Source: a virus
Virus record (IMG/VR): IMGVR_UViG_3300037549_000321
Location: 1-44,431 of that record
Strand: one strand, 5' to 3'
Length of the DNA: 44,431 nucleotides
Shown here: positions 28,775 through 37,080 of the stretch, piece after piece
Layout: every line of letters starts with the position of its first letter
Numbering within the stretch: the stretch's first letter is position 1
Notes under the pieces: generated by a model
Databases searched by the model: none
The model's input: only the letters and a program-made list of their open reading frames with translations
What the model was told of the DNA's origin: nothing
Position numbers and translations under genes: made by a program

Positions 28775-29023
28775 ATGCCATCTTTAAACGATGCAATCAC
28801 CGCGGTAGAGCAGGGCCTGACGGCCTATAGCACCGCATCCACACAGACCAGCAACGACCAGGCCGCGGCCAGCGCGCTGCAGGCGAAGTTGGACGGGGCA
28901 ACGGCGCAAGTGTCCACCGATCAGCAGGCCCAGGCGGCCGTGGCGGTTACGCTGAATGCCGCCCTGGATTCGCTGAGCGCCTCGGCACTGGCAGCCAAGA
29001 TACCGGCGCCGCCGGTGGCGTGA
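28775..29023 (+). CDS. Small coiled-coil protein
   Basis: An 82-residue, alanine- and glutamine-rich, all-helical protein (AITAVEQGLTAYSTASTQTS, then ALQAKLDGATAQVSTDQQAQ) with a proline-rich end. It looks like a coiled-coil virion or assembly protein. The open frame extends upstream to 28631, but the preceding codons cover the spacer; ATG 28775 gives the coherent protein. Its stop overlaps the following GTG. Confidence 0.6.
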   Translation: MPSLNDAITAVEQGLTAYSTASTQTSNDQAAASALQAKLDGATAQVSTDQQAQAAVAVTLNAALDSLSASALAAKIPAPPVA

Positions 29024-29892
29024 AGCCGCAACTGGAATTGATCGATCCGTTCCCGAACTGGGCCTGGCCGCAAGTCTGGGCCTGGCTGGAACCCATAGCG
29101 CACCTGGTGGGGGACGACTTCAGTCCGAAGACAATCGAGCAGTATGTCGAATACTCCATTAGGGCCTCGGAGCGAGGCCGGGTGATGGGTATAGGGGACG
29201 GGGGCAAACTATGTGGCGCGGTGATGTTCGAGCGGGCCAGTCCGGTGATGGCCATCATGCACGTGCTGTTCGCGCCGTGGTACCGGGGATCGAAGCGCAA
29301 GTGCGAGGCGTCGCGGTTGGCCTGCGGGCGGCTGTTCGAGACGACGGAGACGCTGAAGATTCTGGGGCTGGTGCCGGCGGACAATCGGGCGGCGATTGCG
29401 CTTGCCGTGCGCGGAGGCGCCCAAGTGGAAGGGGTACTGCGGAGCCACTCGGTGCGCGGGGGCAAGGCCATCGACGTGGTGGCGGTGGGGATAACGAAAG
29501 AGGAGTTCGCACATGGGATTGAACTTCGGCGGACAGAGCGCGCAGCAGTCGGCCAGCACGTCGGGCACGAGCAACTCGACGAGCACGCCTACGTACACGA
29601 GCGACCAGTCGGGGTTGCAGACTATGTTGAGCAGCCTCTTCAAGACGCTGATGCCGGCGGCGACGTCGGGGAGCATCTCGCCGAATGTGCAGGCGATGCA
29701 AACGGCGGGAGCGGACCAGATCAACAAGACCTCGGCGGGGCTGGGGGACCGCATGCAGAAGTTCCTGGCACAGCGCGGATTCGGGTCCAGCGGGACATCG
29801 GGAAAAGTGGCGCTGCAGGGCGAGTTGGGCAGGGAAAGCGCGCTGGGGGCAAACGCCAGCGCGGCAAGCGGGTTACAGCTCCAACAAAATAG
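29020..29892 (+). CDS. GNAT acetyltransferase-like protein with overlapping tail
   Basis: Residues 1-165 look like a small acetyltransferase of the GNAT type found in tail/assembly regions of phages: a beta pair with GKLCGAVMFERASPVMAIMH, VLFAPWYRGSKRKCEASRLA (the acetyl-CoA-binding-like turn and helix) and ILGLVPADNRAAIALAVRGG (the N-x-x-A-x-x-hxxxxGF-like motif). Beyond residue 165 the frame continues for 125 codons entirely inside the next gene and has shadow-like composition (Gly, Asp, Arg, Gln). So the functional protein is probably about 165-170 residues and its stop has been lost, or the overlap is genuine. GTG 29020 overlaps the upstream stop. Confidence 0.6.
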   Translation: MKPQLELIDPFPNWAWPQVWAWLEPIAHLVGDDFSPKTIEQYVEYSIRASERGRVMGIGDGGKLCGAVMFERASPVMAIMHVLFAPWYRGSKRKCEASRLACGRLFETTETLKILGLVPADNRAAIALAVRGGAQVEGVLRSHSVRGGKAIDVVAVGITKEEFAHGIELRRTERAAVGQHVGHEQLDEHAYVHERPVGVADYVEQPLQDADAGGDVGEHLAECAGDANGGSGPDQQDLGGAGGPHAEVPGTARIRVQRDIGKSGAAGRVGQGKRAGGKRQRGKRVTAPTK

Positions 29893-30031
29893 CACGATGC
29901 TGGCGGACGCTCTGGCAATGGCCTATGCCAATCCGGGCGCGGTGAAGAGCGGGACGGACAGCGGGACGTCGAGCGGGACTAGCAGTGGAAGCAACTGGGG
30001 GGCGAGCGCGGCAGCGGCGTTCGGATTCTGA
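29513..30031 (+). CDS. Putative internal virion/assembly protein
   Basis: A 172-residue protein (ATG 29513 with GAGGAG seven bases upstream). It is Ser/Thr/Gly/Gln-rich at both ends with a helical middle (QTMLSSLFKTLMPAATSGSI, LGDRMQKFLAQRGFGSSGTS). Such low-complexity helical proteins before a giant internal protein are often ejected internal virion proteins. It overlaps the acetyltransferase-like frame by 380 bases and couples to the next gene through TGATG. Confidence 0.68.
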   Translation: MGLNFGGQSAQQSASTSGTSNSTSTPTYTSDQSGLQTMLSSLFKTLMPAATSGSISPNVQAMQTAGADQINKTSAGLGDRMQKFLAQRGFGSSGTSGKVALQGELGRESALGANASAASGLQLQQNSTMLADALAMAYANPGAVKSGTDSGTSSGTSSGSNWGASAAAAFGF

Positions 30032-31305: not shown

Positions 31306-34300
31306 ATGGGGAGCACATTCGTACCACCGCGCCTGGATCAGTGGGAGCCGGCGAAGCCAGCGTTGCCTGACGGTCGGGGTTCGGTCAGCGCGTCGGGATT
31401 CGTGCCTCCGGCGCCGGATTCGTGGGAACCGACGAAGAAGCAGACGCTCCCTGACGGTCGCGGCTCGGATATGGGGGCGCCGGTTCGGCTGTCGGACCAG
31501 TTGCCGGCCCCTGACGACGTGGTGCGGCAGGCGACGGTAGCGGCGCGGGCGATTGTGGATGTGGCCACGCGGCCAGGGCCGGCGCGGGTGCCCTCTCTGC
31601 CTGTGCCGTGGGAACTGAGTTTACAGCAGCCGAACCCAAATGCTCACGGGCCTGGCTGGATCACCGGCAAAGACCAAACCGATATTCCGCAGCAGATCCT
31701 GGACATGACTGCGGGTGGCATTGGAAAGCTGGCGCAGGGTGTGGAGCAGATGGCGGAGCCAGGCGGCCGCCAGAAGGCCGGCGGTCTGCACCAGGTCATC
31801 TCGGGCGGATTCGAGGCGGCGACGCCGGCGATGGTGGCGGGCGGGATCGCGGCGCCGCTCAAGACGGCCGTCGTAGTGGGTGCGGCGATGGCGGCGCAGA
31901 AGGGTACGGAAGTGGGGCTCAAGTACCTGGGTCTGCCGCGGGAGTACTCCGAAGTGGCCGGCGACCTGGTCGGGTTGGTGGCGGCGGCCGTGGCGCACGG
32001 GAAGCTGAGCAGGCCGGCGATCCGCGACACCATCGAGCCGGTGCTGAAAGAGCGGGCTGCCAAGAAGGCGGCGGCGCCGGCGGAACAGCAGTACACGAGC
32101 ACGGGGGAGCCAGTGGGTGGGGGATTCACGCCGCCGCGGCCGGACCAGTGGGAACCAAAGGGGGAGAGCACAAATGCCGAAACGAAAGGTAAGCAAGCCG
32201 GGACACCGGGGCAGCCTGTTACAGGCGCTGGAGCAGAGCAGCCAGGATCAGCAGTCGGACAAGCGGATGTTGCCGCGCAGGCCTCCGGCGCCGAAGGGCA
32301 AGTAGGGGGCGGCGTCCCTGGTGACGAGCTCTACGGCCGGGCCGTGGCGGAAGCGCGGGAGATGACTTCGGCCATTCCGGGCGGCCTGGTGAGAAAGCTG
32401 GGGATCAGTAACGCTCAAGCGGTACAGCTAATCGCCAGGATGAAGGCGGATAAGGTCCTCGACCAATCCGGCCGTCCTCTGGACGAGGGCGGGAACCTGA
32501 TTTTCAGGTATCAGACGAGAACGGGGGCAGGATCGATTCAGACGCCGGAATTCGGGCCGGACGGTAAGCCGCTACGTGCGGCGACGGCACCCAGTGGCTC
32601 ACCGGGTGAGCCTGCGAAGGGAACGCCTTACGACACGCCGGAGATCGTGGCGGCGCGGGCGCGAGCGGCGGCGATTCCGCGGACCAATCTGATTAAAACC
32701 CCGGAGCGGCAAGCGCTACGCAGCGACGCGGAGAGCCAGGTTTATAAGCCAGAGGGGGTAGAGAAAGGTAGGCAGGCGTACCTGTTCATAGGGAATCCGG
32801 GTTCGGGTAAGTCCACCCTTGCCGAGCGACTGGCCACGGAGACGCATAGCCTGGTGGTGGATTCGGATCCTATCAAGAAGCTGCTGCCAGAGTATGGAAA
32901 CGGTGAAGGCGCCGGGGCGGTACACGATGAATCGTCGGATATTGCCGACAAGGTTCTGGGGCGCGCGAGGGCTGAGGGGCTGAACATAGTCCACCCCATT
33001 TTGGGTCGGAATATCGAGAAGGTGCGCGGACTGCGCGACGAACTCCAGGCGGATGGTTACGACGTTCACCTGGTGCACGTCGATCTGCCAATTGAGAAGG
33101 CGGCGGGGCGGGTGGTGACGCGTTTTCAGGAGGGTGGGCCTTTTGTCGATCCTGCGTTCGTAACCAATGAAATCAAGGGTTCGGCGAAGGCGAACTATGA
33201 TACACTGGAGTCAGAAGGGGGCTTCAAGTCTTATGCCGAATTCTCTAACGACGTCCCCCGCGGAGCCGATCCCCGCTTTGTCGGAGGAAGAGGCTTTGAA
33301 GCGTTACCTGGCCTACAATCCGTACGACGAGGATCACGACCGGACAGTGGCGTACCTGCGCAACGAGCGCCTGGCGCGGGAAGCAGCCAAGCAGAAGGCC
33401 CCGCCGGCAGCGGAACCCCAGCAGGAAACCCCGCAGCAGCCCCAATGGACGGCGGAGCAGTTGGCGCGGTGGACGCCGGAGCAGTTGGAGAAAGGGGCGC
33501 GGTTCAGGCGGATGCTGGTGCAGGCCCGCGACGCGTACCTGGAGAAAACACGGATATCCCCACGCCCGGCAACACCGGGGACATCCACGCCCGATACGAA
33601 GTCCGCGAGCTAGCGGACGTACAGCCATCGCACAACGGGCAGACCTTTTCCGCCAATCCAAAGTACGGACACCGGAACGAGCGCGACTACTCCAAGCCTG
33701 AGAACCAGCAGCGGGTGATCGAGAATTCGAGCGAAGAGCGCTTCAATCCGCGGTACCACATCACCGATAATCCAGACGCCACGAATGGGCCGATTGTGGT
33801 GGACGAGGCGGGGAACGCGCTGGGCGGGAACAGCCGCGCCATGATGCTGCAGCGGGTGTACGGGCGCGACGCCGCGGGCGCGGCGGCTTACCGGGGACTG
33901 CTGGAGAAGCGAGCGGGGCAATTCGGCATCGACCCTGAAGCAGTGCGCGGGATGAAGCAGCCGGTGCTGGTGCGGGTGGTGTCGAATGCGGAGCTGGCCT
34001 CGGTGCCGGACGGGGCGGCCGGGATCATTCGCAGAACCAATATCAGCGGGACTGCGGCGCTCAGCGCGAGCGAGCGGGCAGCGGCGGATGCGAGGCAATT
34101 GCACCCGGACCTGGTGCAGCATATCGCCGACTCTATCGAGGCGGCCGGGCCTAGCGCCACGCTGAACGACGCGCTGACGGGAAAGAGCGGCACGGCGATA
34201 GTGAACCGGCTGATTGCGGAGGGATTCTTCAGCGAGCAGGAACGGCCGGCGCTGATGGACGGCAAGACGGGCGCGGTGACGCAGTTGGCGAAGGACCGGA

Positions 34301-37080
34301 TCGGCAAGGCGCTAGTCGGGCAGTTCTTCCGCGATTCGGACCAGATTGCGCGGACGCCGGCGGCGATCAGGGGGAAGCTGGAGCGGGTGGCGGCGCCCCT
34401 GGCGAAGGTGCAGGGCAATGCGGACTGGGATCTGACGCCGGCGATTCGCGAGGCGGTGGACCTGGTGGAGTACGCCAGTGCGCACGGAATTAAGAATCTG
34501 GGCGATGTGGTGGCGCAACAGAGCATGTTTGGGGACACGCCTTGGAAAAGCGACGCGGTGACATTGGCGGGGTGGCTGCGGGACGCCAAACCGAATGACC
34601 TGGTGTCGGCGGTGCGGGGATATGTGGGCGACCGGGAGCCCACGATGTTCGGCGAGACGACTCCGGAGGCGGCATTCAGACAGCACTTCGGAGGGGAGAA
34701 GGCGGCGCGCGGGGGTGGCTCACCAGGTGGGCCTGTGGGAGGAGCTCCGGTTGCCGGACCTGGCGGCCAGGTGGCTGGTGGCCAGCCAGTGGCGGAGGAC
34801 GTGCCACCGCCGCCGCCGGCGCCGGGGCCGGTGACGCAGTTTCTGAAAGAGGAAACCGGGACCAGTTTGGTGGGGGCGATTCTGAAGGCGGACGCGAAAG
34901 AGGCGCTGGCGCTGAAGGCGAAGCGCGACGCGGCGCTGGGGGAGATGGAGAAGGCGAAAGCCACGCCGGGACAGCAGAAGTTCGGCGAGAAGACGATCCA
35001 ATACTTCACCGGGGAGCGGGACTTGTGGGGCGCGCGGGTGAACCAGGTGATCGGGCGGCTGCGCAAGCTGGTGCCGGATCCGGTGGAGCAGGAAGCGCTC
35101 TCGCTGATGCGCGACTTCAAGGGGAAGAGGGCGGAGCTGGTGCAGTTCCTGGAGGGGACGCATCCGGCTTTCAACGAGCTGGACAGCAACACGCCGCTGA
35201 TGCGGGGCGGCCCGGGCTCGGAGTACGCGACGGCGATGGAGCGCATACAGCAGTTGCGGCCGGCGATTCTGAAGGCGCTGGATCCGACGCCGCGCATGCT
35301 GGAAGCCGATGAGGTGTTGAGCACGATCGCGGCGGGGACGCTGAAGGAAGGGCAACGGCTGGGGATCCTGGAGAGCCGTTGGACGCCGGAGCAATATAAC
35401 CCGCACATCCTGCACCCGAAGGGCGAAGGCGAGCTGCCGACGCAGCCGGCGGGGGACAGGATGGGGAAGGCCATCGGCGGGAAGATGGGGCGGTACTTCG
35501 CATTCGCCGAGACGCGCGAGTTTCCAACGCTGCTGGACGCGGTGGTGAATAACTACCGGCCCAAGACGCTGAATGCGTTCGATGCGTTCACGATCCACGG
35601 GGATAAGTTTGCCACGGCGCGGGCGACGCACTTACTGACCACTCAGTTAGCCGACTCGGGGATGGGTAAGTGGGGAGTGAGGGAGCGGGCGCCGGAAGGA
35701 TGGGAACCGCTGGCGGCGCACTCGACGGAGTTCCGCAACCTGGTGGGATACACCGATCAGGAAGGCCTGCCGGCGGCGGCGGAGCAGCGGTTATTCGTGC
35801 CGCGGTTCATCAGCGACGCGCTGCGGCCGATCACGGATCCGGATTACATGGGGCGGATCCCGTTGTTCCGCGGGATGCGGATGACGCAGGCGTACCAGAA
35901 GACGGTGCAGTTGGGGCTGAGCTTCTTCCACGCGTACACGGAGAACCTCATGAGCCTGGCGAACTCGGGGCCGGTGGGGTGGGCGAAGGCCTTGCGAGCG
36001 GACCGGGACAGTCCGGAGTTTCTGCGGAGCGAGCGGGACATGATTGCGCACGGGGGGACGTCGGCGATTCAGGGGCGGACTTACGAGGCGTACCGGGCGC
36101 TGGAGCCGGGGTCGATTCCGACGTGGAGCGATATCTGGCGGCGGGCGCCGGTGGTTCACCAGATGGACCAGGTGGCGGGGAAGATCACGGACTTCACTTT
36201 CGGGAATCTGCAGCGGCGATTCAAGGTGACGGACTACGAGCTGCACGCGGCCGGGTGGCTGGCGAAGCATCCGGAGGCGACGGCGGCGGAGACGGCGGCG
36301 GCGAAGCACTCGATCACGAAAGAGCTGAATGCGGTGTATGGCGGGCTGAACGCGGAGAACCTGGGGGTGAGCCGGGCGAGCACGGAAGTGGCGCGGGCGC
36401 TGATGCTGGCGCCGGACTGGACGTTCAGCAACGTATTCAACGTGAAGTACGCGTTGGAGCGGGGGACGCCGGCGGGGAGCATGGCGCGGATGTTCTGGCT
36501 GCGGACGACGGTGGGCGGCCTGGCGGCGACGCAGGCGATGAGCCTGATGCTATCGGGGAGGACCTCGAAGAATCCGACGCAGGTGTATTTTGGGCGGGAT
36601 CGGGACGGCAACGAGATCTACCAGAACGTGTTCTTCAAGGGCGCCGGCGGGGATGCGATCAACCTGATTCACAACGTGGGGGACTACGGGGCGGTGGAGG
36701 GCCTGGCGCGGAGTCTGGCGGGGAAGGCGGCGCCGATCCCTCGAGCGGCCTTGCAGGTGGCGACGAACCGGGACTACCTGGGGCGGCCGATGGTGCCGCA
36801 GGGAATGAATCCGATTGCGGGGACGGTGCGGGGCGCGGTGAAGACGGGGGCGGCGCTATTGCCGGTGCCGTTCACGGTGAGCAATCTGCACGATATGCTG
36901 TTGGGCCCGGAGGCGGGGAAGTACAGCGTACCGGAGTTTCTGACGACGACGTTCAGCGGGAATCCGCCGCGGCACATGCCACCGGAGGGGATGCGGCACG
37001 GGCGGAACGGGGAGATGGTGGAGAAGCCGTACCGGGAGCCTCGGGGGATCTGGGACCAGATGGTGAGCGGACGGCCTTAA
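31306..37080 (+). CDS. Giant polyvalent phage protein: FtsK-gamma-like, zeta kinase and DdrB/ParB-like domains
   Basis: A 1924-codon frame. Residues 1-60 and about 275-285 carry three copies of F(V/T)PP..D.WEP; two LPDGRGS(D/V) repeat inserts lie between the first two. Residues 338-400 resemble the FtsK gamma winged helix (LYGRAVAEAREMTSAIPGGL, then LVRKLGISNAQAVQLIARMK). Residues 480-660 are a zeta-toxin-type kinase: Walker A GNPGSGKST at 496, VVDSDPIKKLLPEY, HDESSDIADKVL, HLVHVDLPIEKAAGRVVTRF. Residues 762-1133 match the DdrB/ParB-like domain (YEVRELADVQPSHNG, GGNSRAMML near 840). Residues 1185-1924 are a long helical region of the kind found in large injected polyvalent proteins. Two stretches appear to code in frame +2 (32174-32305, 33233-33613). 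Such proteins are thought to enter the cell with phage DNA. Confidence 0.85.
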   Translation: MGSTFVPPRLDQWEPAKPALPDGRGSVSASGFVPPAPDSWEPTKKQTLPDGRGSDMGAPVRLSDQLPAPDDVVRQATVAARAIVDVATRPGPARVPSLPVPWELSLQQPNPNAHGPGWITGKDQTDIPQQILDMTAGGIGKLAQGVEQMAEPGGRQKAGGLHQVISGGFEAATPAMVAGGIAAPLKTAVVVGAAMAAQKGTEVGLKYLGLPREYSEVAGDLVGLVAAAVAHGKLSRPAIRDTIEPVLKERAAKKAAAPAEQQYTSTGEPVGGGFTPPRPDQWEPKGESTNAETKGKQAGTPGQPVTGAGAEQPGSAVGQADVAAQASGAEGQVGGGVPGDELYGRAVAEAREMTSAIPGGLVRKLGISNAQAVQLIARMKADKVLDQSGRPLDEGGNLIFRYQTRTGAGSIQTPEFGPDGKPLRAATAPSGSPGEPAKGTPYDTPEIVAARARAAAIPRTNLIKTPERQALRSDAESQVYKPEGVEKGRQAYLFIGNPGSGKSTLAERLATETHSLVVDSDPIKKLLPEYGNGEGAGAVHDESSDIADKVLGRARAEGLNIVHPILGRNIEKVRGLRDELQADGYDVHLVHVDLPIEKAAGRVVTRFQEGGPFVDPAFVTNEIKGSAKANYDTLESEGGFKSYAEFSNDVPRGADPRFVGGRGFEALPGLQSVRRGSRPDSGVPAQRAPGAGSSQAEGPAGSGTPAGNPAAAPMDGGAVGAVDAGAVGERGAVQADAGAGPRRVPGENTDIPTPGNTGDIHARYEVRELADVQPSHNGQTFSANPKYGHRNERDYSKPENQQRVIENSSEERFNPRYHITDNPDATNGPIVVDEAGNALGGNSRAMMLQRVYGRDAAGAAAYRGLLEKRAGQFGIDPEAVRGMKQPVLVRVVSNAELASVPDGAAGIIRRTNISGTAALSASERAAADARQLHPDLVQHIADSIEAAGPSATLNDALTGKSGTAIVNRLIAEGFFSEQERPALMDGKTGAVTQLAKDRIGKALVGQFFRDSDQIARTPAAIRGKLERVAAPLAKVQGNADWDLTPAIREAVDLVEYASAHGIKNLGDVVAQQSMFGDTPWKSDAVTLAGWLRDAKPNDLVSAVRGYVGDREPTMFGETTPEAAFRQHFGGEKAARGGGSPGGPVGGAPVAGPGGQVAGGQPVAEDVPPPPPAPGPVTQFLKEETGTSLVGAILKADAKEALALKAKRDAALGEMEKAKATPGQQKFGEKTIQYFTGERDLWGARVNQVIGRLRKLVPDPVEQEALSLMRDFKGKRAELVQFLEGTHPAFNELDSNTPLMRGGPGSEYATAMERIQQLRPAILKALDPTPRMLEADEVLSTIAAGTLKEGQRLGILESRWTPEQYNPHILHPKGEGELPTQPAGDRMGKAIGGKMGRYFAFAETREFPTLLDAVVNNYRPKTLNAFDAFTIHGDKFATARATHLLTTQLADSGMGKWGVRERAPEGWEPLAAHSTEFRNLVGYTDQEGLPAAAEQRLFVPRFISDALRPITDPDYMGRIPLFRGMRMTQAYQKTVQLGLSFFHAYTENLMSLANSGPVGWAKALRADRDSPEFLRSERDMIAHGGTSAIQGRTYEAYRALEPGSIPTWSDIWRRAPVVHQMDQVAGKITDFTFGNLQRRFKVTDYELHAAGWLAKHPEATAAETAAAKHSITKELNAVYGGLNAENLGVSRASTEVARALMLAPDWTFSNVFNVKYALERGTPAGSMARMFWLRTTVGGLAATQAMSLMLSGRTSKNPTQVYFGRDRDGNEIYQNVFFKGAGGDAINLIHNVGDYGAVEGLARSLAGKAAPIPRAALQVATNRDYLGRPMVPQGMNPIAGTVRGAVKTGAALLPVPFTVSNLHDMLLGPEAGKYSVPEFLTTTFSGNPPRHMPPEGMRHGRNGEMVEKPYREPRGIWDQMVSGRP
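31362..31386. repeat. LPDGRGSD-coding repeat, copy 3 (diverged)
   Basis: CGTTGCCTGACGGTCGGGGT followed by TCGGT, a diverged member of the family (changes at both ends and the Arg/Gly codons), read in frame as Leu-Pro-Asp-Gly-Arg-Gly-Ser-Val within the giant protein. Confidence 0.65.
31446..31470. repeat. LPDGRGSD-coding repeat, copy 4
   Basis: Identical over 25 bases to 9396-9420 and in frame (Leu-Pro-Asp-Gly-Arg-Gly-Ser-Asp). It lies 84 bases from copy 3; the intervening sequence repeats the F-V-P-P..D.W-E-P motif, suggesting a local duplication. Confidence 0.85.
32174..32305 (+). CDS. Nested small basic protein (frame +2)
   Basis: A 43-codon ORF inside the giant frame but in frame +2: MPKRKVSKPGHRGSLLQALE, then QSSQDQQSDK and a proline/lysine-rich end. 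GGGGGAGAG lies seven bases before its ATG, a good ribosome-binding site. By hand count 36 of 43 codons end in G or C, against 21 of 42 in the overlapping giant frame, so this frame carries the coding signal of the region. The product would be a small basic peptide of unknown function. Confidence 0.5.
   Translation: MPKRKVSKPGHRGSLLQALEQSSQDQQSDKRMLPRRPPAPKGK
32596..32612. repeat. Short palindrome GGCTCACC-G-GGTGAGCC
   Basis: An eight-base perfect inverted repeat with a one-base loop, in the linker between the FtsK-gamma-like and zeta domains. A related but imperfect copy (GGCTCACCAGGTGGGCC) lies near 34715-34731 in another linker of the same gene, suggesting a dispersed element tolerated in linkers. 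Confidence 0.5.
33233..33613 (+). CDS. Nested protein behind the zeta domain (frame +2)
   Basis: A 126-codon ORF from ATG 33233 overlapping the end of the zeta domain and the linker before the DdrB/ParB-like domain. The product is protein-like: LSEEEALKRYLAYNPYDEDH, YLRNERLAREAAKQK, then WTAEQLARWTPEQLEKGARF. By hand count over 80 codons from 33302, 69 end in G or C, against 37 of 80 in the giant frame for the same bases, so frame +2 is almost certainly the selected frame here. AGAAGGGGG lies about ten bases upstream. Its place directly behind a zeta-type kinase makes an immunity or partner protein possible, but this is only inference; no epsilon antitoxin similarity is seen. Confidence 0.65.
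   Translation: MPNSLTTSPAEPIPALSEEEALKRYLAYNPYDEDHDRTVAYLRNERLAREAAKQKAPPAAEPQQETPQQPQWTAEQLARWTPEQLEKGARFRRMLVQARDAYLEKTRISPRPATPGTSTPDTKSAS

Follow-up and report, generated by a model that had tools for sequence, protein, structure and literature searches.

A conserved reading frame, probably an overprinted gene, directly before the DdrB-like ParB domain of giant phage polyvalent-type proteins

Background

Does the linker between two enzyme-like domains of a giant phage protein also encode, in a second reading frame, a small protein of its own, and if so, which part of the giant would that protein serve? The question is raised by a virus record of 44,431 bases (IMGVR_UViG_3300037549_000321), called the window here at its full length. 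The window carries an integrase gene, a sigma-factor-like gene, and terminase, portal, head and tail genes, followed by an open reading frame of 1924 codons. Zeta and DdrB-like ParB domains encoded near virion genes are the make-up of phage polyvalent proteins as described in PMC5512222. The giant of the window has this make-up, with DdrB-ParB among several effector domains and the terminase, portal, head and tail genes upstream.

We argue below that the linker just before the DdrB-like ParB domain contains an overprinted gene in the +1 frame (frame +2 of the stretch) that is real and translated, and from the sequence comparisons we put the probability of this at just under 0.9. In the proposed arrangement, both frames would be translated and under selection, and the nested gene would have its own start, usually marked by a Shine-Dalgarno (SD) sequence or, where this is missing, by a -10 box 8-9 nt before the start codon. 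The features of the locus are collected in Table 1.

Table 1. Features of the giant gene and of the nested reading frame in the window
Feature	Position	Strand	Remarks
Giant host gene, polyvalent-type protein, 1924 aa	31306..37080	+	Read through across the nested gene
Zeta-toxin/AAA_33 kinase domain, giant aa 490-621	32773..33168	+	Pfam 1.9e-12
-10-like box TATGAT	33196..33201	+	31 nt before ATG 33233; overlaps TACACT 33201-33206
Shine-Dalgarno-like AAGGGGG	33215..33221	+	11 nt before ATG 33233; duplex dG -10.4
Nested ORF, 126 aa, likeliest full extent	33233..33613	+	Frame +2; ATG 33233, TAG 33611-33613; homologous ORFs in 27 other loci
Shorter alternative of the nested ORF, 105 aa	33296..33613	+	TTG 33296; GGAGG 8 nt upstream
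Conserved helical core of the putative nested protein (QWTAEQLARWTPEQLEKGARFRRMLVQARDAYLEK)	33443..33553	+	Alignments, AF2, codon-position divergence
C-terminal tail of the putative nested protein	33554..33610	+	Overlaps start of conserved DdrB-ParB region; both frames conserved
DdrB-like ParB domain, giant aa 757-892	33574..33981	+	Pfam ddrB-ParB 2.2e-13; constant neighbour of the nested gene
Frame +2 stop TAG	33611..33613	+	Created by rare giant-frame Leu codon CTA 33610-33612

The nested reading frame in the window

The original prediction was drawn from third-position base counts and the look of the two translations, and placed a separate frame +2 gene directly behind the zeta domain. The placement is correct for the window, where the Pfam match to zeta extends to residue 621 of the giant, at position 33168. 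A recount of the 80 codons from 33302 returns exactly the reported numbers, with 69 ending in G/C in frame +2 and 37 in the giant frame. Along the 1,924-codon gene, the excess of G/C-ending codons in frame +2 over frame 1 reaches its maximum, 34 per 80 codons, at the nested ORF, and is at most 16 per 80 codons outside 33000-33600. G/C at third positions (GC3) is nevertheless suggestive rather than conclusive by itself, because in shorter stretches of 40 codons it also flips in two other Gly/Ala/Pro linkers of the giant gene, at 32206-32326 and 34666-34846. The second of these linkers has a frame +2 GC3 of 0.88-0.93 and frame +2 stops in its second half; its GC3 looks like a composition effect, and is a warning against the use of GC3 alone.

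Frame +2 is open in the window from 33164 to 33613, and the nested ORF lies wholly within another gene in a shifted frame. When the giant codons over the nested stretch were shuffled 1000 times, frame +2 acquired a mean of 3.7 stops, and the chance of finding none was 0.00. Start codons were picked by the analyst throughout, and ATG 33233 was chosen over TTG 33296 after the -10-like box had been seen; TTG 33296 has no such box just upstream, in contrast to ATG 33233.

Conservation of the nested frame in related phages

A nested helical protein is predicted in the same frame, directly before a giant's DdrB-ParB domain, in 27 other phage sequences, which makes 28 loci with the window. All of these loci are on unannotated metagenomic virus contigs and are related to each other, so that p-values computed across them overstate their independence. 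Five IMG/VR contigs at 64-77% identity keep the giant frame open through the linker together with the same +2 ORF, of 50-67 aa, whose products align to the C-terminal half of the window protein with the consensus WTPEQLARWTPEQLEKGAR..E.LRQARD..LEKTRTSSSPAK..PS.PATKSAS. The predicted product is 50-88 aa long in the other loci measured and 126 aa in the window. No homologue of the first ~70 residues of the window protein was found in any relative, and the support for this part consists of base composition and the open frame only. The original prediction would have been refuted by relatives that keep the giant-frame residues but break frame +2 with stops; they conserve frame +2 instead, and the same-frame ORF kept in them backs the claim of a separate protein-coding gene overlapping the linker.

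Among 24 distinct DdrB sequences, 22 including the window have the nested ORF (21 of the 23 others, by inspection), and it is absent from L034 and L041. The SHNG motif of the DdrB region follows its stop by exactly 17 nt in 16 of the 22 and by 26 nt in 4. L012 and L017 lack the usual frame +2 stop, and their ORFs enter the DdrB coding region, to +43 and +103 from the SHNG motif. A further sample, drawn from 80 of the 104 relatives, added 55 distinct DdrB sequences, six of them with the nested ORF. These six belong to the 10 distinct fresh loci whose DdrB identity to the query is 43-63%, and the other four of the ten (L067/L068, L074, L075, L077) are without the ORF; none of the 45 fresh loci of this sample at <= 38% DdrB identity has a match at the nested place. 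Conservation of the nested gene extends to giants whose DdrB domains share only about 40-50% identity. The DdrB tree has few well-supported branches.

The relationship was also tested with profiles. A profile built from seven close members was run against 6,668 six-frame segments of 24 loci and placed 11 of the 17 distant loci ahead of every unrelated segment. Next came L013 and L014 (E 0.1-0.17), while L022 and L023 were within the noise (E 2.6 and 2.9) and were assigned by position and eye; L034 and L041 had no match at the nested place. Because the tail included in the full profile overlaps the start of DdrB in the giant frame, itself conserved, a run with the helical core alone matters: its nine best untrained matches were all at the nested place. 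A second profile, of 22 members, was run on 57 fresh loci (55 distinct; 7,409 six-frame segments) from the 80 of 104 relatives. Its six best segments, in L073, L051, L072, L055, L079 and L062, all untrained, were all in frame +2 directly before DdrB, with E values from 3.5e-12 to 0.012, and the seventh match was noise (E 0.11).

The nested frame was found only in its usual place. With the 126-aa product as query, no relatives appeared among viral contigs or phages; a relative's 62-aa ORF gave only matches of E > 1 in phages and one new contig, L020, among viral contigs. A DdrB query returned zero genome contigs and three far phage or plasmid matches, all without the nested ORF. No stand-alone copy was found in searches of viral contigs, phages, plasmids and genome contigs.

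These giants seem to exchange their N-terminal and middle modules freely. In L020 (4548-8108) a P-loop, zeta-like stretch follows the DdrB domain instead of preceding it, and the nested ORF is in its usual place. The giant of L006 is 79-82% identical to that of the window in its C-terminal part and has neither a DdrB domain nor the nested ORF.

Selection on both frames

Codon-position divergence was measured in the window and L001-L005, with positions 1/2/3 counted in the giant frame. The control DdrB region diverges by.22/.16/.52. For the nested core the values are.48/.29/.21 when frame +2 guides the alignment, which is the pattern of frame +2 coding, and.36/.29/.35 when the giant frame does. 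Aligned as nucleotides without guidance, and with L020 included, the sequences give.42/.30/.38, vs.23/.18/.55. The shift toward frame +2 is thus real, and is smaller without alignment guidance. Amino-acid conservation in the core is.68 in frame +2 vs.40 in the giant frame, and giant-frame residues are conserved in the tail region, so that both frames carry the conservation that is characteristic of an overprinted pair.

The ends and the openness of the two frames point the same way. The giant's Leu codon whose second base begins the frame +2 stop is CTA or TTA in 14 of the 21 loci with Leu there, against a background of 84 of 1,139 downstream giant Leu codons (7.4%). Over the 28 loci, the giant frame has no stops across the nested gene, where ~31 are expected with frame +2 codons shuffled, and frame +2 likewise has none, where ~15 are expected with giant codons shuffled, although its freedom from stops is below significance in many single loci. 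Zero stops in both frames argue that the giant is translated through and that the small ORF is kept open. The suggestion that the 1924-residue frame merges several units does not survive the giant-frame count.

Start signals and a possible promoter

SD-like sequences with a dG of -5.8 or lower precede 13 of the 21 nested starts (window excluded), compared with 11.6% of 657 control starts, the controls being other frame +2 ATG/GTG codons in the giants. In six of the seven close loci an SD stands at the start (dG -6.4 to -10.4); in the seventh, L004, a -10 box stands 8 nt ahead of the ATG. Of the 28 loci, 20 have a -10-like hexamer (score >= 6) at 4-41 nt upstream of the start, vs 8.8% of 10,862 background sites, and a strong box is absent upstream in the other 8. 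No sampled segment of the giant gene scores as high as the TATGAT box of the window. The p-values for these signals are indicative only, since related loci were counted as independent and the starts were picked by the analyst.

The box is exactly 8 nt from the start in seven loci, vs 0.24% of the background; in L017 the distance is 9 nt, and a second box of L029 lies at 8 nt. In all eight loci with a box spacer of 8-9 nt the SD is weak or absent (-2.8 to +2.2), which is the arrangement of leaderless genes, with a -10 box adjoining the start and no SD. The loci with other spacers mostly have an SD, with L014, L029, L031 and L062 as exceptions. Such a near box is rare for ordinary genes on the same contigs (1 of 46 and 1 of 93, in a crude count). 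The boxes occupy all three codon phases of the giant, arguing that they are not a by-product of its amino acids. The window itself is not of the leaderless type, which would have a -10 box 6-9 nt before the start: its box lies 31 nt ahead of ATG 33233, and it has an SD-like stretch.

A -10 box at 8-9 nt together with a missing SD suggests that the nested gene has its own promoter and is leaderless in some loci. Transcription would then start from a sigma70-like promoter, yielding leaderless mRNA in some of the phages, and synthesis of the nested product would not depend on the late transcript that encodes the giant protein destined for the virion. A promoter tool run over the giant gene reported no -35/-10 pair. 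L014 (5880-5915) contains TTGACA, 17 bases and then TATAAA overlapping the nested ATG; this promoter-like site is too close to the start to be a plausible one for making the nested ORF.

Alternative explanations

Several explanations that do without a nested gene have to be weighed. GC-rich Gly/Ala/Pro linkers might by themselves yield G/C third positions and few frame +2 stops, with nothing encoded, and the milder GC3 flip in two other linkers and the lack of significance in many single loci fit this idea. We consider it very unlikely in view of the higher core conservation of frame +2, the codon-position divergence that is shifted even in the unguided alignment, the hold-out profile matches, the rare Leu codon at the stop and the SD and -10 signals; the conservation, divergence and profile results contradict a pure composition artefact. 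Over 33300-33560 frame +2 is the more natural-looking of the two frames, which could also mean an assembly or sequencing error, or two compensating indels, with the true giant reading frame +2 here. However, the same two frames occur in the same register in 27 further loci, which come from many separate metagenome data sets, the stop is at the same place in most of them, and giant-frame residues are conserved in the tail. The chance of such an error is negligible, and a compensated indel is contradicted by the same two frames in the relatives. A programmed +1 frameshift would make frame +2 an alternative C-terminal end for the N-terminal part of the giant, and a fusion is geometrically possible in the window, where frame +2 is open into the end of the zeta domain. 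We find this scarcely probable, since a frame +2 stop lies at most 3 codons upstream of the start in L005, L012, L014, L022, L023, L043 and L044, and since the close loci have their own start signals (six with an SD, and L004 with its near box).

Two other explanations accept the signals or the gene and read them differently. An internal promoter (or an RNA) could be the main conserved feature, serving for instance the downstream DdrB part, with the ORF as a leader peptide. The enrichment of -10 boxes in all three codon phases would be accounted for, but frame +2 is conserved at the protein level over 40-60 codons, and inspection of giant-frame translations by eye revealed no Met that is kept in the stretch from the nested core to the DdrB motif, so that this too is unlikely. 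The original prediction offered an immunity or partner protein of the zeta kinase. In the window the nested ORF does follow the zeta domain directly, and the N-terminal helices peculiar to the window protein begin just after that domain. A phmmer search (E up to 10) with the zeta segment of the window, however, found it in none of the 27 other nested-gene giants, and a P-loop motif precedes the nested gene in only L079 among them; the nested gene tracks DdrB-ParB instead. A zeta partner is thus very improbable indeed, and a frame +2 antitoxin of zeta is rejected on the same 0 of 27.

The nested protein and its possible role

The 22 nested proteins compared are free of Cys, strongly hydrophilic and mostly basic, those of the window and L002 being near neutral. 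The AF2 model (22 sequences) has a helix at window residues 82-107, with a pLDDT of about 94-96 in the core block, and window-specific N-terminal helices at 18-28 and 35-55. Its pTM is only 0.34, and for this reason we claim no fold. The protein had no usable matches in Pfam, PHROGs or PDB sequences, and Foldseek of this model (pTM 0.34) against PDB gave none.

PMC5512222 describes processed DdrB as built into the phage P1 head, and the DdrB domain as probably either a DNase regulated by NTP or a sensor of NTP. Because the nested gene is found only beside the DdrB domain, it may encode a helical partner or regulator of the DdrB-bearing giant, whether partner, inhibitor or packaging aid; we propose this tentatively as the likeliest role, at somewhat less than an even chance. 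Consistent with such a link, the DdrB-less giant of L006 gave no match for the nested product. The candidate protein might act with or upon the giant, for example by restraining its nuclease/NTPase part in the producing cell, or might instead aid its folding or packaging, and immunity or partnership toward the DdrB part is possible. The association might also be no more than a result of the physical overlap, given that a nested gene is tied to the gene that contains it. The role we rank next is that of an unrelated small regulator.

A bolder and rather doubtful version would make the promoter and nested gene a portable cassette at the joint where N-terminal domains are swapped; the host polymerase would transcribe it apart from late transcription, and its small helical product would serve the injected DdrB-ParB enzyme as antidote or chaperone. 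If this were true, the weapon-making cell would be protected, by an overprinted immunity gene inside the gene for its own effector. For the injected polyvalent proteins, which are poorly understood, the nested product is a concrete candidate for a partner.

Relation to known systems

Lambda Rz1, nested within Rz, and phiX174 E, within D, are like the window pair in that one gene lies wholly inside another in a shifted frame. Unlike these two, the nested protein is not of a lysis type by sequence (all 22 being Cys-free and strongly hydrophilic), its host gene encodes a giant polyvalent protein, and it has its own promoter-like box, of a leaderless type in some loci. PMC8227390 gives phiX174 E within D as a nested phage gene and +1 as the commonest shift among de novo internal overlaps.

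The polyvalent proteins of PMC5512222 have the same DdrB-ParB and zeta domains near virion genes, and the nested gene would be an addition in one branch; the word "overlap" has 0 occurrences in the main text of that source. We found no report of a nested gene in polyvalent proteins in the open-licence literature, where absence is weak evidence. Nested phage genes are a known kind, and it is the family, the place and the promoter arrangement that look new.

Epsilon-zeta toxin-antitoxin systems have a zeta-type kinase domain adjoining the gene of a small helical protein, and the window resembles them in having a small helical protein gene beside such a domain. Unlike epsilon, the nested gene is not accompanied by zeta in relatives (the zeta segment of the window is in 0 of the 27 others), the window protein has no Pfam match, no epsilon family occurs among the weak matches of the other members, and neither PDB sequences nor Foldseek, with the model of pTM 0.34, gave a structural match.

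In Deinococcus, leaderless genes carry TANNNT, in the form TACACT most often, ahead of the ORF by about 6-7 bp (PMC12340547), and those of Mycobacterium tuberculosis have a -10 box adjacent to the ORF (PMC3898074). Eight of the nested loci are like the Deinococcus genes in having the box near the start and no SD, but at 8-9 nt. Unlike the genes of either bacterium, they have the box inside another gene, and it is rare for other genes on the same contigs.

The nested-gene profile allows others to find further members. Gene finders usually discard ORFs nested in a longer ORF on the same strand, and for this reason conserved nested genes in tailed phages have probably been under-counted. Another overlap is seen upstream of the giant gene, where plus-strand ORFs at 29020-29892 and 29513-30031 of the window lie in different frames and overlap by 380 bases; judged by eye, the former is acetyltransferase-like and runs into the frame of the latter.
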